From NCBI GenBank assembly GCA_021927905.1, contig BLLK01000022.1, positions 1,240,001 to 1,304,000 of the forward strand: DNA of 64,000 nucleotides, read 5' to 3'. This DNA comes from Chaetoceros tenuissimus. Taxonomy: Eukaryota; Bacillariophyta; Thalassiosirophyceae; Chaetocerotales; Chaetocerotaceae. Below, one piece after another: positions 25,167 to 34,085 of the stretch (positions within the stretch are counted from its first letter, which is position 1; each line of letters opens with the position of its first letter). The notes beneath the pieces are model-generated. The model did no database searches, was not told the origin of the DNA, and saw only the letters and a list, made by a program, of their open reading frames with translations. A program made the position numbers and the translations under genes.

Positions 25167-25951
25167 TTTGATCCTTTGTACTGCTGATGGTATAATCTTT
25201 TTTCGTGCTCTGTAATTTCCGTTTAGATAACTGTAGGGATTTTGATCCGAAAAATAATCTATTTACAGAACCAATCCAGTATCTCGAAGTGGACAGCAAT
25301 GCTTCATTTATGCTTGAGTTTTTTGTTCATCTCTCTCTCTCTCTGCTCATTATTCAGCATCCCCCCCAGAAATTTGGCGGGCACCTGATGAGGGTAAAAC
25401 TTTCATCCAAAAACCTAAATATTTAAAAAAGTTAAACAAGTATAAAACACGTTCGGAAAAGGCCTATGCTAATAAGTAAATATGTGTTAACGAGACATTG
25501 GAATCAGTGGAATGACTCTCCTTTTCATTTCGGTGCTCTTTGCAACATGCTGAGTCCATCATGAAACGTTCAAGACGGTATCAATACCATACCAACCTTT
25601 CACATCCTATGTTTTATAATCATGAAATACAACCTTTTCAGGAATTATTCCTCATTTAGGAGATTTTCAATGAAAGTATCCAACTTATTCTTCAACGACA
25701 AACTCAGTACCGGATAATGACTCGACAAGTCATTCATATCAATATTTCTTATAGGTATTTGCCAATCGTATCAAAATCTAGGCAAGTTTCGTATGGTTTG
25801 CTCGTAGAACCTACGTTGGAGGAGAAGGCAGCTTCGGGAACAAAATGTTTCGTTATAAGAAATTCCTTCTGCTTTTCATTTTCAGTCTTGGAACTCAGCG
25901 CAAACATAACAAAAATGAGAGCACATCATAATAATTCAAACATTTGAACAT
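25167..25951. other. Intergenic region left of the transposon
   Basis: About 785 bp between the POLD3-like gene and the transposon. It holds a short CT-dinucleotide run near 25330 and otherwise only AT-rich sequence. No coding frame is supported. Before the insertion it would have been continuous with the promoter of the gene at 32835. Confidence 0.45.
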
Positions 25952-25954
25952 TAA
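25952..25954. repeat. Left target-site duplication TAA
   Basis: TAA immediately precedes the left terminal repeat and is matched by TAA immediately after the right one at 32774-32776. Confidence 0.7.
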
Positions 25955-26123
25955 AGACCTGATTTTTGTAACAGTGGAAGGAAGTAAGAAAAAGTAAGAA
26001 AAAAGTAAGAAAAAAAGTAAGAAAATTTGACCAAAAGTAAGAAAATCTGTAAGAAAACCGTAAGAAAAAAGTAAGAAAATCTCTGGTTATATTTTATTTT
26101 ACTAGGTATCACTGGACCCCCTC
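25955..26123 (+). repeat. Left terminal inverted repeat (169 bp)
   Basis: Pairs with 32605-32773 over 169 positions. I see one difference, an A/T change in the TTATATTTTATTTT part. It contains eight GTAAGAAAA-like units, with spacer lengths conserved between both ends. Confidence 0.95.
25983..26089 (+). repeat. Iterated GTAAGAAAA units inside the terminal repeat
   Basis: The core GTAAGAAAA repeats with spacers of a few A residues or TTTGACCAAAA. The same array appears as TTTTCTTAC at the right end. An ordered array of short motifs in both ends is typical of transposase-binding sites; that function is inferred. Confidence 0.75.
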
Positions 26124-26246
26124 TTCATTTTGGGGGGCTCAACAAAAGGTTCGGAAGGGTTCGCGGAGTATCACTACACATATCCACATATCCACATATC
26201 CATCACAAAACAAACAAATTCTTCACTGCCTTCACTAATAAACATC

Positions 26247-29200
26247 ATGGAGAATGTTGAGAAGGATGCGATGAAGAATGTTGATGATACTAGTACCGAT
26301 AAGGTTGAATTACAAGCGATGGAGAACGAGGGAGAACAAGAAAGGGGAATGAAGTCTCCTCCTAAGAATACAACACTGGATAAAAGCAAGAAGAATGAGA
26401 AGAAAGAGGATACACCTTTCTCTGTTGATAAAACCCATTCTGGAGAAAAAAGACGTCAAACCCCTTTTTCAATATTCTCAAGTGATAAGAAAGCAAAGTT
26501 AGATACGATATCCACCATAGAACCCCTTTCAATAATTGGAACTGAGAAGCGACAGAAAACAATAACAATAGAGACACCTCTTAGTGTTGAAGGAAACAAT
26601 GAGAAAAATATTTCTAAAATACTCAATTTCAATGAGTTGGAAACTATTCAAGAGTGTCAACAGAACGAAGCGCCTACTTCAGTCTCTGCTCTACCAGCGT
26701 CTAGTGTGACTTATACCCCCATGACTCCTATGATTCAACGATCGCCAGTATATTCAACTCCTATGGTGAAAGAAGGAACTTTGAATACTAACATCATTCC
26801 CATGGATGTTCAAGCGGTTTCAATAACACGCTCACTTGGAGATATGGTAAAAAATGCAAGTGGAAAGGAGGCTGTACAGTTTCTTTCTTTGTACGTCGAT
26901 GCTGGATTGACCAAGAAGGATGCAGAAGAAATGACTGGACGGAAGATCCATGGGAGGCTGTGGGCAAAGGCAAGACGTCACTGTAATTATCCTGGTCCAG
27001 GAAAGCAAGTTGTGGAAACATTTTGGAAAAATCATCGGAAACGGATTGGAGACGAACAACTAATTGAATTCATGGAATGGTTGAGGGCTGCAGACCTTAT
27101 TCAAAATTTGTCGTATGGGCAGAAAGTAGTACAGTTTTCAAATGGTCGACATGTGGCTATTGAGTCTGTCAAACGCACTGATCTCATACGAAATATTGTA
27201 AAAAAGTATTATGAATTTATGGAAAGTCGTGGAGAGGAGGAGAACGCTATTGATGATGTCGATGACGATGATGACGATGAGATTCCAAATCTTGCAGAAA
27301 GATCACCAGAGGGTTATGATAGTGAAAGCGATGACGATGACGATGAATTTGAGGCAGAAATAGACTTTGTAGGTGAGGATTTCCTTTTCGTTTTACCGTG
27401 ACTTCATTATATATAAATTCTCACTTTTCTATTCCAAACTAGATGACGATAGATGTTCCGCTACGTGTGCAAAGACAAGTCGAAGATGTCTTCTTCATCA
27501 GAACCATATTAACAAAGATGGTAGAAATAGTAGGCATAAATTTACTCCAAGGCATATGCTTAGCCCATCTACTATAGAGAAGCTTCTAAAAACACTTACA
27601 TCGGGAGGAATCAAGTCCAGGGCTGGATTGGATAACATTGATGTTGAGAAAGGGCATGAGAATTTCGAAGCTATGAAAAATCTCATTGATACAATGTGCA
27701 CAATGCTTGGCGACGATAACAAAAAGAAAACTCTGAAAGAAAAAGTCGAGGGGATCGTCGTATTCCACAAAGTCCATTTTGAGCGACATCTGAAAGCAAA
27801 GTCGAACAGACACAGTTGCATGTGTCTACATTGTGGGTTCTATTCCACGGATGACCCAATTCAATGTCCTACTGACCACTGCACTGTACCTTGTCAAGAC
27901 TGTCAAGACAGTTTTGCAATCTTTGGAGAAATGACTAAACTTTTTGAAGAAGTGCAGGAACGCTTTGGAGATAATGAAAGTCAGCCATGGCTGCAAGACG
28001 ACATATTGCTTTGGGGGAGTCAAATCAAGGACTTCTCTCAAAACCTGAGGGATTATCGCGCTCACCTAGCCGATAAGGTTAGCGAAGCAAATTTCGACGA
28101 CAAAGACAGAGATCTAGGAGAAGGTGAGGCTCTTGTAGTCATTGACTACAAAATGAAAGTTCTTCCGAGAAGCTTTCGTGAAAAAATGAAAGATTGGTAT
28201 TCGAAAAGAGGAATTAGTATTCTCGGGGTCGAAATTCACATCATTGTGAATGGAGAAAGGAAAGTGTTCTACCATTTCTTTATCTCAGATGATGTGAATC
28301 AAGATGCAGAAGCTGTCTTGTGCGCAAAGCACTTTCTTTATTCCAAGGTGCTTCCAAGATATGGAATCAAAACTGTGAAATTTCGATGTGATGGTGCTGG
28401 TTGCTTTTCTTCTCAAGAAGCAAAGTCTTCTATGAAGCTTTGGGACGATCTTGCTCGAAATGCAGCAGCTAATGATAATGTCTTCTGCTACGAGACTGCC
28501 TACAAAGTCATGGTTGCTGGTTGCGGAAAAACCGCACTTGATGGGATGTTTGGCATTATGACTATGCATCTCATTCGCCTAGTAAACTGTGGTAATTCAT
28601 TTAACAATGCCGATGAATTGTTTCGACTCTTGGCTGCGTATCCTCTGCATCGATCTTACTATCACCGTTTCGAACCAGATCGAGAGTTACTTGTCTGGCC
28701 AAAAGCTTCAAAGGATCTGCATTTGAAACAATTTCACCATTTAAAATTAGATAGTAAGAATGGGGAGGTCATTGGAAAGATCCATAGTGATCTTTCCACT
28801 GATATAGTCTTCACTTTGGACAAAACCGATGGATTTGCTCGCAAAAAGTTCTCGATGTTGCAATATGATCATATCCCAATTTCAGAACAAAATGGTGAGT
28901 TCGTTGGACCAAGTATTTTTACTTTCGCGCCCTTCAGAGTCTCACATACCCATACATGCAATAGCCACAAAAGACCCTTGTGTGCATGTCAAAGAAACTT
29001 CATTTCCTTATGATTCCTTGACCAAAGAACTGCTGAGTATGCTAACCAATGCTCCATCGAGAGATCCAAGGTCTATACAGGAGCGAATTTATGAACAGAC
29101 CAATGATCGAATCAACAAAAGCGAAGATTTGGTTAGTAAAAAATGGGAAAAATATAAAGAAGAAATGAAAATGAGTGGGTATCTTTGTTGTCCTGAAACA

Positions 29201-30088
29201 GATGAAAAAACAATGAATAAATGCACTTGTATCTTCAAATCTGAAAAGGCTCTACAGAAACATATTGCTGAGAAAAGGCATGTATACCCAACAGTTGACT
29301 TGGAAACTAATCTTCACTTACTCCATCTTGAAGGAAAAATTGCTTTTTGCCTAGCAACAGGCACGATGACAAATCGATCCGAGATAGCTGATGAAAGTAA
29401 GTATAAAATTCGGGAAGGTGAAGAGATGAGTAGTCACGAAGAATGGTTTTCAAAGGGTTGTTACAATCCTAGTCGGGGGAGTAATTTCCAAGCTAGTGAG
29501 GCATTGTTGAAAGACTTGAAAACTTTATTTTTTGCAGGGTTTGAAACTGAGAACCGGGAGAAATCTGCTGCCAACAAGTATACCGCGGCTCAAGCATTAA
29601 CGTATCTTGCAAATTTGAAGACGCAACATGGGAGACGCAAGTATAGTTGTGATCCACAAAATCTAAACGGTCCATTACCAACACAGGCATACATAAAGGG
29701 CTGGTTCAGTCGTAAGGCCAACGATCTTAAACAAGAAGCATTAGCCAGCAATGGAGATTTTACTCAATTAACCAAGTCAAAATTGAAAGAATTGATAAGG
29801 AAGAAATTTCAACTGGTCAAAGTCACAGAAAAGGCTGTTCTTATCCGGCTTCTACAAATCAGTTCTCGAATGCAAACAGATAAAGGCTTAGATTGCTCGG
29901 GAAAAACACTTGGTGAGATGAAAGAAGAGTGTGAAAACTTGGGTATTCCGACTGAAGGTAGGGATTCTTGGATTCATCTGCTAAATTTGGAATTTTCTCT
30001 TAATAAGCTTCAAGAGAATACAGAGTTGATGAATGTTGTTCGTGATACAAGGAGAGAGGAGTTGGTATGCGAAAGGGGGGATAACTAA
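26247..30088 (+). CDS. Transposase: DDD RNase H-like core with zinc-finger and SAP-like parts
   Basis: Seen: exons 26247-27372, 27443-28894 and 28938-30088 join in frame (introns 70 and 43 nt) to 1242 residues; the ATG at 26247 is the first in frame. Residues 1-250 are Lys/Ser/Thr-rich. Residues 280-375 form a basic, helix-rich part ending in an Asp/Glu run. Cys clusters near 380 and 500-530 (CMCLHCGF, CQDCQD) look zinc-binding. Residues 600-760 have an RNase H-like layout with candidate acidic residues D610 (VVIDYK), D692 (FRCDGAGCFSS) and D742 (GKTALDGMFG). Residues 943-975 hold a C2H2-like finger (CCPET, CTCIF, KHIAEKRH), and about 1140-1210 SAP-like helices (LTKSKLKELI). Without the 43-nt intron the frame stops soon after 28894. 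The family is not one I can name with confidence. Confidence 0.82.
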
Positions 30089-30128
30089 TAAAAGTAATTG
30101 TTGTTATGTTATTAGTTTCCCTTTTTTG

Positions 30129-31673
30129 TTAGTTTCCCTTCTTAAGTTTCTCACGTAGTTCTTTTTCCAATGTTTTTACTTGCTTTCTCCTTGGTTTGAA
30201 TGGGTCTCCAATGTGCTTACAATACAGATCCTGCAACTTTTCATGTTTCTTTGGATCCGACCTTGCGCTATCAATCATTTGCTCAGTGAGTTTTTCACTT
30301 TGAGCTGTAGATGCTGACCTCTTCCTGTTAGTAATGTACATCTTCGAATCTTCATCATGAAATGGGCAATAATACATAGACTCGTAGCCATTCTTTGTTC
30401 CGCATGGTAAACAGAATGGAATTTTGCACTCTCTACACAGGTGATTGGTTGTTCGCGTTCTGCAAAAGGGACAAAGAGTACATTGGTAACGTTTATCCCC
30501 AACTTGCTTCCCTGCATCGTCCACATACTTTTCTGAGAAAGTGTTGAAGTCATCAGAGACTAGATCATTTGGAATTACATTGGGTCTACCATCTCTAGCA
30601 TCGTTAATAGTTACAGAAGGAGGAGAGGGAACAGGAGAGGACAAGTCTTCATCAACTTGGTTCTCTGAATGACTATCACTTTGAGAGGCCTGTTCCGAAC
30701 TACTACTAACTCGGGCAGAAATATCCAATTCACCTTCCGGCTCAAAAGGAAACTTTGCATCATTCAGGACTTTCCTTTGAAGAGCATTCAATTTAAGCGT
30801 CTCTTTGCGAATACAAGCTATAGCTTTCTCCAAGTTGGGTCCCTGTGATGCTGGTTCCTTGAAGGTCTTATTATTCTTAGTGTAGACACCGATTGCATAT
30901 TTGAATGCTTCTTCAACAGAGATAAACCATGGAAAGTTCACTGCTTCAAGAAAAAGCATGTGTGTATCAGTGAGTTTTCCTTTCTTTTGCAACTCGATGA
31001 CTCTGCCAATATCAACTTTCTTTCCATCAGAAAGAACATCGTAGGGAGGTGATTCGTCACCATGAGCCTCAGCCAAAGCCATAAGACTCTCGCAAAGCTT
31101 CTGAACAAAACTATCTATTGACTCTTCTTCGTTGCTACTTCCTGTATTGTTTGAACCAGTTGCAAGATTGGTGCTAGTCGCCTCCTTCATTTTTGCCTTT
31201 CCTTTCTTTACACTTCCGGACTTTTTAATTTCTTCATAGAGTTGTGGATTCGTTTCCATTTGTCCAAGAACTTCATCAAAGTTAGACAAGCCAGCTGCTT
31301 GAAGCGTTTTTGCACTACGGTATGCCTCACTGTGTTCCCCACGAATTTTAGCAGTCCAAATTTGGTTCCCGACCCATTTTCCAACTTTGTACATTCTTTT
31401 TTTTGTCTTGTCCTCTTTATCAGTAAATGGATACTTTTGGTCGATTCGTATGTTCACTTGTGCTGTTTCCCAGTCTTTTCTTCCTTCTTCCTTCCATTCG
31501 TTCCTTTGCTTTTGAATAAGATGTGTGATTGCCCTAATGTAATTCCGAGAATTCATTTGAGGATTTCTCTCTCTCTTTTTGCCTTGTGGTTGCTGACCTT
31601 CTTGATTCCCATCGTCTACACTGTCATCGAAACTTACTTCATTTGGAGGTGTACTCTCATCGTTAGATGCCAT
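30129..31673 (-). CDS. Transposon-borne zinc-binding protein of unknown function
   Basis: Single exon of 514 residues, ATG at 31673, convergent with the transposase and 40 bp from its stop. The N-terminus is acidic and disordered. A region near residues 60-130 is basic and Trp-containing (WETAQVNIRID, KVGKWVGNQIWTAK) and might bind DNA. A long Ser-rich linker leads to a C-terminal Cys/His cluster (CTLCPFCRTRTTNHLCRECK, PFCLPC, YYCPFH) that resembles the C-terminal zinc domains of piggyBac and IS4-related transposases. No catalytic acidic triad is visible. It may be a transposition partner protein, like the Myb-like second protein of Harbinger elements, but that is inference. Confidence 0.75.
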   Translation of the reverse strand: MASNDESTPPNEVSFDDSVDDGNQEGQQPQGKKRERNPQMNSRNYIRAITHLIQKQRNEWKEEGRKDWETAQVNIRIDQKYPFTDKEDKTKKRMYKVGKWVGNQIWTAKIRGEHSEAYRSAKTLQAAGLSNFDEVLGQMETNPQLYEEIKKSGSVKKGKAKMKEATSTNLATGSNNTGSSNEEESIDSFVQKLCESLMALAEAHGDESPPYDVLSDGKKVDIGRVIELQKKGKLTDTHMLFLEAVNFPWFISVEEAFKYAIGVYTKNNKTFKEPASQGPNLEKAIACIRKETLKLNALQRKVLNDAKFPFEPEGELDISARVSSSSEQASQSDSHSENQVDEDLSSPVPSPPSVTINDARDGRPNVIPNDLVSDDFNTFSEKYVDDAGKQVGDKRYQCTLCPFCRTRTTNHLCRECKIPFCLPCGTKNGYESMYYCPFHDEDSKMYITNRKRSASTAQSEKLTEQMIDSARSDPKKHEKLQDLYCKHIGDPFKPRRKQVKTLEKELREKLKKGN

Positions 31674-31915
31674 GGCTTTTGTTATTCAAATTTGCTATCG
31701 ATTTACGTGCAATTAATCATTCAATTACTTTAAGAGTAAATTTTATTTGTCTTCTCCATTTCAATCAACAATACGTAGTTTCCATGTCACGTCACGTCAA
31801 TCCAATTCAATCGAAATCTCCACGCTACGAATCTCCACGCTACGAATCTCCACGCTATTGATTACTTCTATTCCAACACATTCCACAAAATAGACAGATA
31901 ATAAAAGGTAATCAA
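31674..31915. promoter_or_regulatory. Divergent promoter region inside the transposon
   Basis: 242 bp between the starts of the zinc-binding protein gene (-) and the small acidic protein gene (+). It contains a 15-bp tandem repeat at 31815-31859 and a short TCACG iteration near 31787. Promoter function is inferred only from the divergent layout. Confidence 0.45.
31815..31859. repeat. 15-bp tandem repeat, three copies
   Basis: Three head-to-tail copies of AATCTCCACGCTACG, the third ending in TT instead of CG. It lies in the divergent promoter region inside the transposon, so it could be a regulatory site; this is inference. Confidence 0.8.
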
Positions 31916-32545
31916 ATGGAAAGATCATCTAGACCATCTAGACGCCCTCGGCTACTCCGTATTACTCCATTCTATGTTGGTGAAATCGTAAGAGAAGACG
32001 ATGGTCCACAATATCGTGAAGGAGAGATTGTTAGTATCCAAGCTGATGGACGGGTCAGGGTTAGATGGAATGATAGACAAGAGAGAACTTACCTTGAGGG
32101 AGATGTCCTTGACATGGTTCTGTATCAACACAACCATATCAACAACTTTAACAGGGAGCAAGAAGAAGGTGCACAGGCACTCCTCAATCAAGAGGAAGAA
32201 GTAGGAGACGAGATACAAGAAGAAGTACCAGTAGAAGCACCGGCTGTTCACGAGGAAGAGGTTCAAGTAGAAGCACCAGCTGCCGAAGAAGAAACACCTG
32301 TAAATGAAGATGTAGAAGAAGAAAAGGAGGAAGAAGATAGTCTTGGTGGAGATTATCGTAGTGCAGCTAGTTCTTCAGATGAAGAGTCTGACGGAACAAA
32401 TGAAGACCTTGCACCCAACGATACACCTGCTAGACCTACACTCTCCTCATCTACAGGTATCACCCCTGCTATGAGTAGGATGAGACTCAATGGTGATTGC
32501 GAATGTGGACAACAGCTACCATGCTTGTTTTGCCTTAAATTTTGA
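31916..32545 (+). CDS. Small Tudor/chromo-barrel-like acidic protein of the transposon
   Basis: Single exon of 209 residues. Residues 15-60 read like a Tudor-knot or chromo-barrel fold: YVGEIVREDDGPQYREGEIV then VRVRWNDRQERTYLEGDVL, a run of short beta strands around a V-R-W core. Residues 75-175 are mostly Glu, Pro, Ala and Ser and strongly acidic. The C-terminus has CECGQQLPCLFCLKF, four cysteines that could bind zinc. Such barrels read methylated lysines or bind DNA (family knowledge). A role in targeting chromatin or aiding transposition is inference. The stop lies 59 bp before the right terminal repeat. Confidence 0.7.
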   Translation: MERSSRPSRRPRLLRITPFYVGEIVREDDGPQYREGEIVSIQADGRVRVRWNDRQERTYLEGDVLDMVLYQHNHINNFNREQEEGAQALLNQEEEVGDEIQEEVPVEAPAVHEEEVQVEAPAAEEETPVNEDVEEEKEEEDSLGGDYRSAASSSDEESDGTNEDLAPNDTPARPTLSSSTGITPAMSRMRLNGDCECGQQLPCLFCLKF

Positions 32546-32604
32546 ACTTGATGTGTAGGTATGTTGATGTGTCGCGAGTACTCCCACCTTGAGGAAGTAC
32601 AAGG

Positions 32605-32773
32605 GAGGGGGTCCAGTGATACCTAGTAAAATAAAATAAAACCAGAGATTTTCTTACTTTTTTCTTACGGTTTTCTTACAGATTTTCTTACTTTTGGTCA
32701 AATTTTCTTACTTTTTTTCTTACTTTTTTCTTACTTTTTCTTACTTCCTTCCACTGTTACAAAAATCAGGTCT
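32605..32773 (-). repeat. Right terminal inverted repeat (169 bp)
   Basis: Reverse complement of the left repeat with one mismatch. It ends at CAGGTCT, followed by the TAA duplication. The next gene starts 61 bp downstream of its outer edge. Confidence 0.95.
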
Positions 32774-32776
32774 TAA
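32774..32776. repeat. Right target-site duplication TAA
   Basis: TAA directly follows the right terminal repeat and matches the triplet before the left one. Confidence 0.7.
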
Positions 32777-32834: not shown

Positions 32835-34085
32835 ATGAATACCAGTAATACTTCCCATAGCAACAAGAGGAATTTCACTCAGGTCTCTCAAGAAGGAGAG
32901 AATATGTCTAGGTTCACGGACTATGCACATCCCGACGATGTGTATCAGCCAACACCTAAACGCTCAAGAATGAATATGAACTCCATGAATACATTTTATC
33001 AAAACGATACAATGTATGGAAATGATTTCGATCAGTTAGAAGACGTTCCTCCTGTCCAGACTGCATTTCGCCGTAGCGCTCCATATGTTTCCAATAGCTC
33101 ACAAGGTTACAGCGCCTATGAACCTGACGTGAGCCCATATGACAACACGACCTATGCTGACATGTATTCCAATACAGACCAGGCATATGTAACTCCAGAT
33201 AGATATGATTACGAGAGATCCTCAGGATATCACAATTATTATGGCTCCAATGGTGCAGCCTCCTCGAATCCTTACTCCAACGATTACTATTACTCCTCTA
33301 GAAATCGATCGTGCCAAACTCAAAATTATCAAATGCCGATTTCAGAACCTTATCCGTCCCTCTTTTCCCATCATCAAGACTTCAATACTAATATTCCTAC
33401 TGTGAGCTTCACAGAAACTCATGCTGAACATGATGTATATGATCCTAACCGCTCGAGTGATACTCCGGTAAGCATATACGAAGAGCAAACCGCTTCCGCG
33501 CCTGTTGTCTCTCCAGTTGTTGCTCCAAAGTTACCGAAGAAGTCTCCAGAAAAGAGATTCAAAACTTTCCACAATGAAAAATGGAATGAAAACCTGGAAG
33601 CTCTACGTGAATTCAAGAAGAAGTACGGCCACTGCCTCGTACCGCATACATTCCCTGAGAATCAACACCTCGCGCGCTGGGTCAAGCGTCAGAGAAGACA
33701 ATACAAGTTGATGAAAGATGGAAATGCATCATCTACCATGACACCACAACGTGTTGAGATCCTAAACGGTGAAGGGTTCATCTGGGACTCTCATGAAATT
33801 GTCTGGAGGGAACGTTATGAGCAACTCAAAGATTACAAGCGTGAACATGGGCATTGTAGAGTACCTTCCTACTGCAAGGAAAATCCACAGCTTGCAAGTT
33901 GGGTAAAGTGTCAAAGAAGACAATATAAATTATTTTGGGAAGGAAAGAGATCATCCATGAGTGTAGAAAGAACGCAAATGTTGGAAAACATTGGTTTTAC
34001 GTGGGAGGTCAGAAATGAGCTCAAGTCAAAGAAAAAGAATGATGAAAGTTACAAGAAGCTAGCTGAAGTCTTGAACGGGATCTAA
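32835..34085 (+). CDS. Protein with two helicase-associated (HA) domains
   Basis: Single exon of 416 residues from ATG 32835. The open frame continues upstream into the transposon end, but those codons are T-rich repeat sequence and not credible coding. Residues 1-240 are low complexity (Asn, Tyr, Ser, Pro) and look disordered. Residues about 245-395 hold two HA domains (Pfam-type PF03457): each has a Trp-containing helix, a YGHC or HGHCRVP turn, then LARWVKRQRRQYKL or LASWVKCQRRQYKL, ending GFIWD or GFTWE. HA domains are expanded in diatoms, often without any helicase (family knowledge); nucleic-acid binding is inferred. The transposon has landed about 60 bp upstream, so its promoter is probably disrupted or replaced. 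Confidence 0.85.
   Translation: MNTSNTSHSNKRNFTQVSQEGENMSRFTDYAHPDDVYQPTPKRSRMNMNSMNTFYQNDTMYGNDFDQLEDVPPVQTAFRRSAPYVSNSSQGYSAYEPDVSPYDNTTYADMYSNTDQAYVTPDRYDYERSSGYHNYYGSNGAASSNPYSNDYYYSSRNRSCQTQNYQMPISEPYPSLFSHHQDFNTNIPTVSFTETHAEHDVYDPNRSSDTPVSIYEEQTASAPVVSPVVAPKLPKKSPEKRFKTFHNEKWNENLEALREFKKKYGHCLVPHTFPENQHLARWVKRQRRQYKLMKDGNASSTMTPQRVEILNGEGFIWDSHEIVWRERYEQLKDYKREHGHCRVPSYCKENPQLASWVKCQRRQYKLFWEGKRSSMSVERTQMLENIGFTWEVRNELKSKKKNDESYKKLAEVLNGI

Follow-up and report, generated by a model that had tools for sequence, protein, structure and literature searches.

Sola transposons encode a transposase with a catalytic triad of aspartates (DDD), produce 4-bp target-site duplications, mostly measure 2-9 kb (some are larger) and carry terminal inverted repeats (TIRs) of 11-1124 bp (PMC10741241). 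For Sola2, the duplications have been described as AT-rich AWWT (PMC3627910). Kolobok elements duplicate TTAA, have 5'-RR..YY-3' ends and a C/DxxH motif between the second aspartate and the last catalytic residue, include lineages with accessory genes and have been recorded in the diatom Fragilariopsis cylindrus (PMC9587614). TTAA is also the target of piggyBac (PMC5199201), the ends of which are 5'-CC..GG-3' (PMC10045372), while PIF/Harbinger elements produce a 3-bp duplication (PMC2213677). Here, a stretch of 64,000 nucleotides from the diatom Chaetoceros tenuissimus (the window, C16:1240001-1304000; G+C 39.1%) was analyzed. Positions without a contig name refer to the window. It holds a complete and real TIR DNA transposon, element A or copy A, at 25956-32772 (6,817 bp), as a preliminary description of the locus had claimed. 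The most likely explanation, held with modest confidence, is an autonomous DDD cut-and-paste transposon that inserts at TTAA and is distantly of the Sola type, in its TTAA-using branch.

Element boundaries and the TTAA duplication

The TIRs of element A are 168 bp each and lie at 25956-26123 (plus strand, starting GACCTGATTTTTGTAACAG) and 32605-32772 (minus strand). The single difference between the arms stands as first described, and their length is 168 bp rather than 169 bp. The genome searched comprised 41.03 Mb in 68 contigs, and copy counts are lower bounds. It contains 11 matches to the silicon-transporter family, all above the cut-off of that family, which marks it as that of a diatom; among 14 control genomes one gave a match, below the cut-off. 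A search with the left end returned six places, which correspond to three elements: A, copy B (C27:2082803-2090460) and copy C (C29:330140-337016). When up to three mismatches were allowed, the terminal 23-mer matched these six ends genome-wide, and a reversed control had no match. The boundaries and all three genes are common to these full-length copies.

The preliminary description read the duplication as TAA, which would have fitted PIF/Harbinger, and copy A, taken by itself, allows a repeated TAA to be read directly beside each of the 169-bp ends. The left flank of copy A carries TTAA (25951-25954) and one additional A (25955) before the element; TTAA follows the right end (32773-32776). 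Copies B and C have TTAA on each side, and TTAA immediately precedes GACC in five of the six genome ends (TTAA-GACCTG). Copies B and C lie within other repeats, and their targets therefore also occur without an insertion. For copy C, the empty site L055 (C29:326640-326778) reads GACTGTTG-TTAA-TTTAGGTGC where copy C has TTAA-element-TTAA, and L056-L058 likewise hold a single TTAA (four sites read among the 30 matches listed besides the flanks of copy C itself). The target of copy B has at least 38 matches besides its own flanks (the best 40 of 58 candidates were scored), and 14 of these paralogues were read. Three of them (L051-L053) carry GAAATTAAGC, with one TTAA; the remaining 11 have ATTTAGC at the insertion point (eight by pattern, three from the letters). 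The joined flanks of copy A matched only themselves (two of two matches) and gave no empty site. The duplication in copies B and C is thus the 4-bp TTAA and not TAA.

This 4-bp duplication rules out PIF/Harbinger, to which we give practically no chance: such elements share the possession of TIRs with this one, but a 3-bp duplication is refuted by copies B and C and by the empty sites. Harbinger elements also carry a second gene, pairing a Harbinger-type aspartate-aspartate-glutamate (DDE) domain with a Myb-like second protein. Neither appeared in the list of Pfam matches to the five scanned pieces. The doubt expressed earlier that the core motifs are those of Harbinger was reasonable.

The repeat that hosts copy B is dispersed (C27:2082654-2082803, C27:2090460-2090609 and the other matches counted above). 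Its inverted ends lie a few hundred bp apart, for example at C58:716584 (plus) and 717142 (minus), and it is perhaps a family of miniature inverted-repeat transposable elements.

Both arms of element A contain an array of eight GTAAGAAAA units. In the left TIR the array spans 25984-26079 (plus strand), with spacings of 10, 11, 12, 20, 12, 11 and 11 bp, and the right TIR has the same eight-unit array. Each arm of copy B also has eight units, and the arms of copy C have nine and seven. The interiors of all three copies are free of these units, and the arrays are putative binding sites for the transposase.

All three genes of copy A, the transposase gene and two others, are intact as first described, and A is the sole full-length copy of the three with every gene open. 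Exon 3 of the copy B transposase is broken by an insertion of 745 bp, which is bounded by TG..CA and accompanied by an ATGTA duplication (read by eye). This insertion, at the equivalent of window position 29279, has repeated ends that resemble long terminal repeats. Copy C has a stop codon inside exon 1. Copies A and B differ at 100 of 6,815 aligned bases, A and C at 400 of 6,711 (6%) and B and C at 393 of 6,782. The view that the element is young is supported by the small A-B difference and by the one mismatch in 168 bp between the TIRs of A; it does not extend to the family as a whole, since copy C is about 6% diverged. Copy A looks recently active from its sequence. The genome search for other copies and empty sites that the preliminary description suggested thus gave two copies with the same boundaries and empty sites that hold TTAA, although none for copy A itself.

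The transposase and its affinities

The transposase gene lies on the plus strand in three exons. Exon 1 (26247-27372) encodes a low-complexity N-terminus followed by a domain at about residues 210-323. Intron 1 (27373-27442; 70 nt in A, GT..AG) is found in all three copies. Exon 2 (27443-28894) encodes two Cys clusters (residues 380-391 and 501-529) and the core with D610, D692 and D742, which are separated by gaps of 81 and 49 residues. Exon 3 (28965-30088) encodes a C2H2-like finger and a SAP-like C-terminal region. When frame-keeping splice sites were enumerated for intron 2 (28895-28964), the acceptor at 28937 gave the 1,242-residue protein first proposed. Copy C has five additional bases downstream of 28937; these would break its frame with that acceptor. 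Acceptors 3' of this indel keep A, B and C in frame, and that at 28964 gives an intron of 70 nt, like intron 1. Intron 2 thus probably ends at 28964, with a predicted protein of 1,233 residues in place of 1,242. Between copies A and C, the ratio of nonsynonymous to synonymous substitution rates (dN/dS) is 0.53 for exon 1, 0.18 for exon 2 and 0.66 for exon 3. As judged from this comparison, the core exon is under constraint.

A single distant relative was found in the genome, a broken copy at about C28:16995-20828. Its alignable pieces fall between residues 210 and 1165, with 31% identity in the N-terminal domain, 35 and 38% across the Cys region and the first part of the core and 40% around the second and third motifs. 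The C2H2-like finger (32%, expectation value (E) 0.001) and the C-terminal region (32%, E 1e-4) align as well. All three aspartates of the D-D-D core named in the preliminary description are present in element A and retained in this relative, where the core pieces are 35-40% identical (37-48% in a separate alignment) and the motifs VIDYK, RCDGAG and GKTALDG read VIDWK, RSDGAK and GKSPLDG. A 100-aa piece of the relative had ten matches in the genome, four of which are itself and copies A-C. The other six are short and weak (E 0.0075 or worse) and involve only its residues 2-30, away from the conserved core.

Several other frames were noted around the C28 relative (locus L013). The locus begins with a copia-like RNase H reading (L013:2-841, by eye). 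A small convergent minus-strand open reading frame (ORF) directly follows the transposase (L013:6964-7620), in a layout like that of the accessory gene ORF2 of element A; it was not reached by the ORF2 search, and its own search returned itself alone. A 160-aa minus-strand ORF beside the relative contains a stretch resembling the third motif (E 0.055). Its search returned only itself, and the stretch was taken as a chance or unknown feature. Upstream of the C28 transposase, an ORF at L013:2283-3086 (C28:16283-17086) holds a stretch resembling Ulp1/SUMO proteases. Its only match among PDB sequences up to E 10 was a Ulp1-like SUMO protease (E 0.25), and Pfam gave none. Kyakuja-Dileera-Zisupton (KDZ) transposases are accompanied by Cys clusters and Ulp1 proteases, and Zisupton makes 8-bp duplications. 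The weak Ulp1-like segment is thus a likeness to KDZ and the 4-bp duplication of the present family a difference; a KDZ domain was not among the Pfam matches listed, up to E 10, for the transposase and C28-relative pieces.

Profile and sequence searches agreed with the earlier statement that the superfamily is uncertain, in that no transposase-type profile or solved-structure sequence was matched. Pfam gave nothing at the cut-off for the transposase pieces (TypeIII_RM_meth, E 0.026, zf-C2H2_jaz, E 0.033, and SAP, E 0.32, were listed) and only mixed sub-threshold matches for the pieces of the C28 relative (best SANT_DAMP1_like, E 0.0075). NCBIfam gave no transposase match, and PDB sequences gave vinculin only (E 0.73). 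Viral contigs held no relative when searched with the exon-2 protein. Two-row profiles built on the first and second motif blocks gave 35 and 53 pattern stretches in these contigs, none of which was confirmed. The degenerate pattern GxGKTxLDGxF found 20 viral stretches, and motif readings were obtained for 16 of these 20 loci, the exceptions being L023, L024, L035 and L036. None of the readings is transposase-like: in 15 loci a single reading recurs in variant forms, probably from the antisense strand of a phage gene, and the reading of the sixteenth is interrupted by a stop. A GCGK version of the pattern found no viral stretch and five in bacterial genomes, about the number expected by chance on a rough estimate. 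Phages and plasmids gave no match. An animal protein family with similar motifs was also considered; DUF3152 was sub-threshold (E 0.019), neither of two viral pattern matches was confirmed and the family was not used as evidence. A literature search, which missed the main superfamily papers, found no account of the present family, and no claim is made that it is unpublished.

The preliminary description had pointed to folding as a way to see whether the three aspartates cluster. A 483-aa single-sequence model was too poor for use (predicted local distance difference test score (pLDDT) 38.5). A 186-aa model of the core reached pLDDT 50 and was fair in its first half only. Its predicted order is strand, helix, strand, strand, helix, strand and helices. 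Strands immediately precede D610 and D692, and D742 is close to where a helix begins. Foldseek returned 875 matches to the core model, and the best 50 of them comprise 48 entries named RNase H (mostly repeated E. coli RNase HI entries), Hermes transposase and YeaZ. With VIA-align, 34 of 1,000 chains had Z of at least 5; families outside its listing are not thereby excluded. The top match was followed by human immunodeficiency virus (HIV) reverse transcriptase, in residues that we take to be its connection domain, and then by retroviral integrases at Z about 5. These comparisons are supportive but weak, and suggest that the core may be that of an RNase H-type DDD transposase.

The case for a distant Sola-type element is built on the published features that define Sola and not on Sola sequence, and membership is unproved. 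The family shows a 4-bp duplication, TTAA in the empty sites of B and C. Element A has a DDD triad conserved in the C28 relative, a likeness at the level of motifs rather than biochemistry, and its 6,817 bp and 168-bp TIRs fall within the Sola ranges. Sola3 uses TTAA, and Sola cores have GK..DG-like motifs. We know of no Sola element with two extra genes and with unit arrays in its ends.

Several observations weigh against this explanation. Searches of Pfam, NCBIfam and PDB sequences connected the transposase with no Sola protein, whether by profile or by sequence. In the core model, residues 108-186, which include D742, lie below pLDDT 50 throughout. None of the Foldseek matches had E below 0.001, and no chain reached Z 8 in VIA-align, where the top match was a designed protein (6.6). 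The junctions are not perfectly regular, given the extra A to the left of copy A and two extra As to the right of copy B. The latter two follow TTAA in the right flank and are present in none of the 14 paralogues read; such bases may have come with the insertion or may have arisen later. Finally, the genome searches gave only three full copies and no short derivatives, for which reason the activity of the family is deduced from identity rather than observed.

We assign a minor share of the probability to an alternative, namely a superfamily of its own, as yet undescribed, whose DDD transposons insert at TTAA and are no nearer to Sola than to other DDD/E groups. It would account for the lack of a transposase-type match in Pfam, NCBIfam, PDB sequences, phages, plasmids and viral contigs. 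It would also suit the combination of an N-terminal domain, two Cys clusters, a DDD core, a C2H2-like finger and a SAP-like tail, an architecture that is old because it can be aligned with a relative only 31-40% identical. However, every published Sola feature that could be compared was found here, and the null searches say little when the comparison set was without Sola and most eukaryotic transposon groups.

A divergent Kolobok is an improbable alternative. TTAA duplications and the GA..TC termini, which satisfy RR..YY, are as expected of that superfamily, and the presence of accessory genes in some of its lineages and its occurrence in a diatom are further likenesses. The C/DxxH motif of Kolobok is absent here, however, with no [CD]xxH after D692 in the 1,242-residue translation. 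Still less can be said for a piggyBac-type element, which we regard as very improbable. The TTAA target agrees with it, and a Cys-rich segment of ORF2 had a chance-level match to the piggyBac zinc domain (5lme, E 4.9), although ORF2 is an accessory gene and not the transposase. The termini are GACCTG..CAGGTC (GA..TC) rather than CC..GG, and no such Pfam match was listed for the transposase pieces up to E 10, a search that distant members could escape.

Accessory genes and neighboring frame

Two further genes are present in copies A, B and C. ORF2 (30129-31673, minus strand; 514 aa) is convergent to the transposase and has a Cys-rich segment near its C-terminus. ORF3 (31916-32545, plus strand; 209 aa) has an acidic middle, a Cys-containing C-terminus and an N-terminus that is possibly SH3/Tudor-like. 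Searches with ORF2 and ORF3 found neither beside the C28 relative. The Cys-rich segment of ORF2 had only chance-level matches among PDB sequences: ribosomal L37Ae (E 0.84) and, at E 1.6 to 4.9, TRIM5, TRIM31, an endosome-associated protein and the piggyBac transposase already mentioned. ORF3 had four sub-threshold Pfam matches, the best being Beta-TrCP_D (E 0.0053) and SH3-C_UBE2O (E 0.014). A 416-aa open frame elsewhere in the genome (C33:516226-516579) is weakly related to ORF3 (29%, E 1.4e-4), and is perhaps an accessory gene of another element or a host gene.

Between copies A and C, dN/dS is 0.82 for ORF2 and 0.31 for ORF3. Of the changes in ORF2 between copies A and B, 43 are nonsynonymous and 5 synonymous; the transposase has 8 and 5, respectively (Fisher p 0.028). 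ORF2 also differs between these copies by in-frame indels of 21 and 30 bp. The same contrast of ORF2 with the transposase has p 0.009 between A and C, and the deficit of synonymous changes in ORF2 relative to neutral expectation was not significant (p 0.059). By these sequence counts, ORF2 is evolving faster than the transposase. Both accessory genes may be conserved passengers or helpers, perhaps binding chromatin or DNA. A wider proposal, to which we give a fairly low probability, is that this family and the C28 relative are founders of a DDD superfamily that inserts at TTAA, is as yet undescribed and has accessory genes and end arrays of its own, and in which the fast-evolving ORF2 perhaps counters host silencing.

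An open frame at 32835-34085 encodes helicase-associated (HA) domains (E 1.2e-39). Its first ATG lies 62 bp beyond the right end of element A, and the insertion may affect its promoter.

Proposed transposition and significance

How might such an element move? In the mechanism that we consider most likely, the transposase would bind the GTAAGAAAA arrays within both 168-bp ends and pair the two ends in a synapse. The DDD site (D610, D692 and D742) would then cut at the GACCTG/CAGGTC termini, and the element would be joined to a TTAA target cut with a 4-nt stagger, which would leave the TTAA duplications. The order of these steps is modeled on known DDD/E transposons.

In copy A, all genes are open, the ends are near-identical and the TTAA insertion site is defined to the base. 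Because of these three properties, copy A is a candidate active transposon of diatoms that can be tested directly, and it might also serve for gene transfer in these algae. Grouping of the core with Sola would add a diatom branch to that superfamily; otherwise, the family would represent a new class of transposase.

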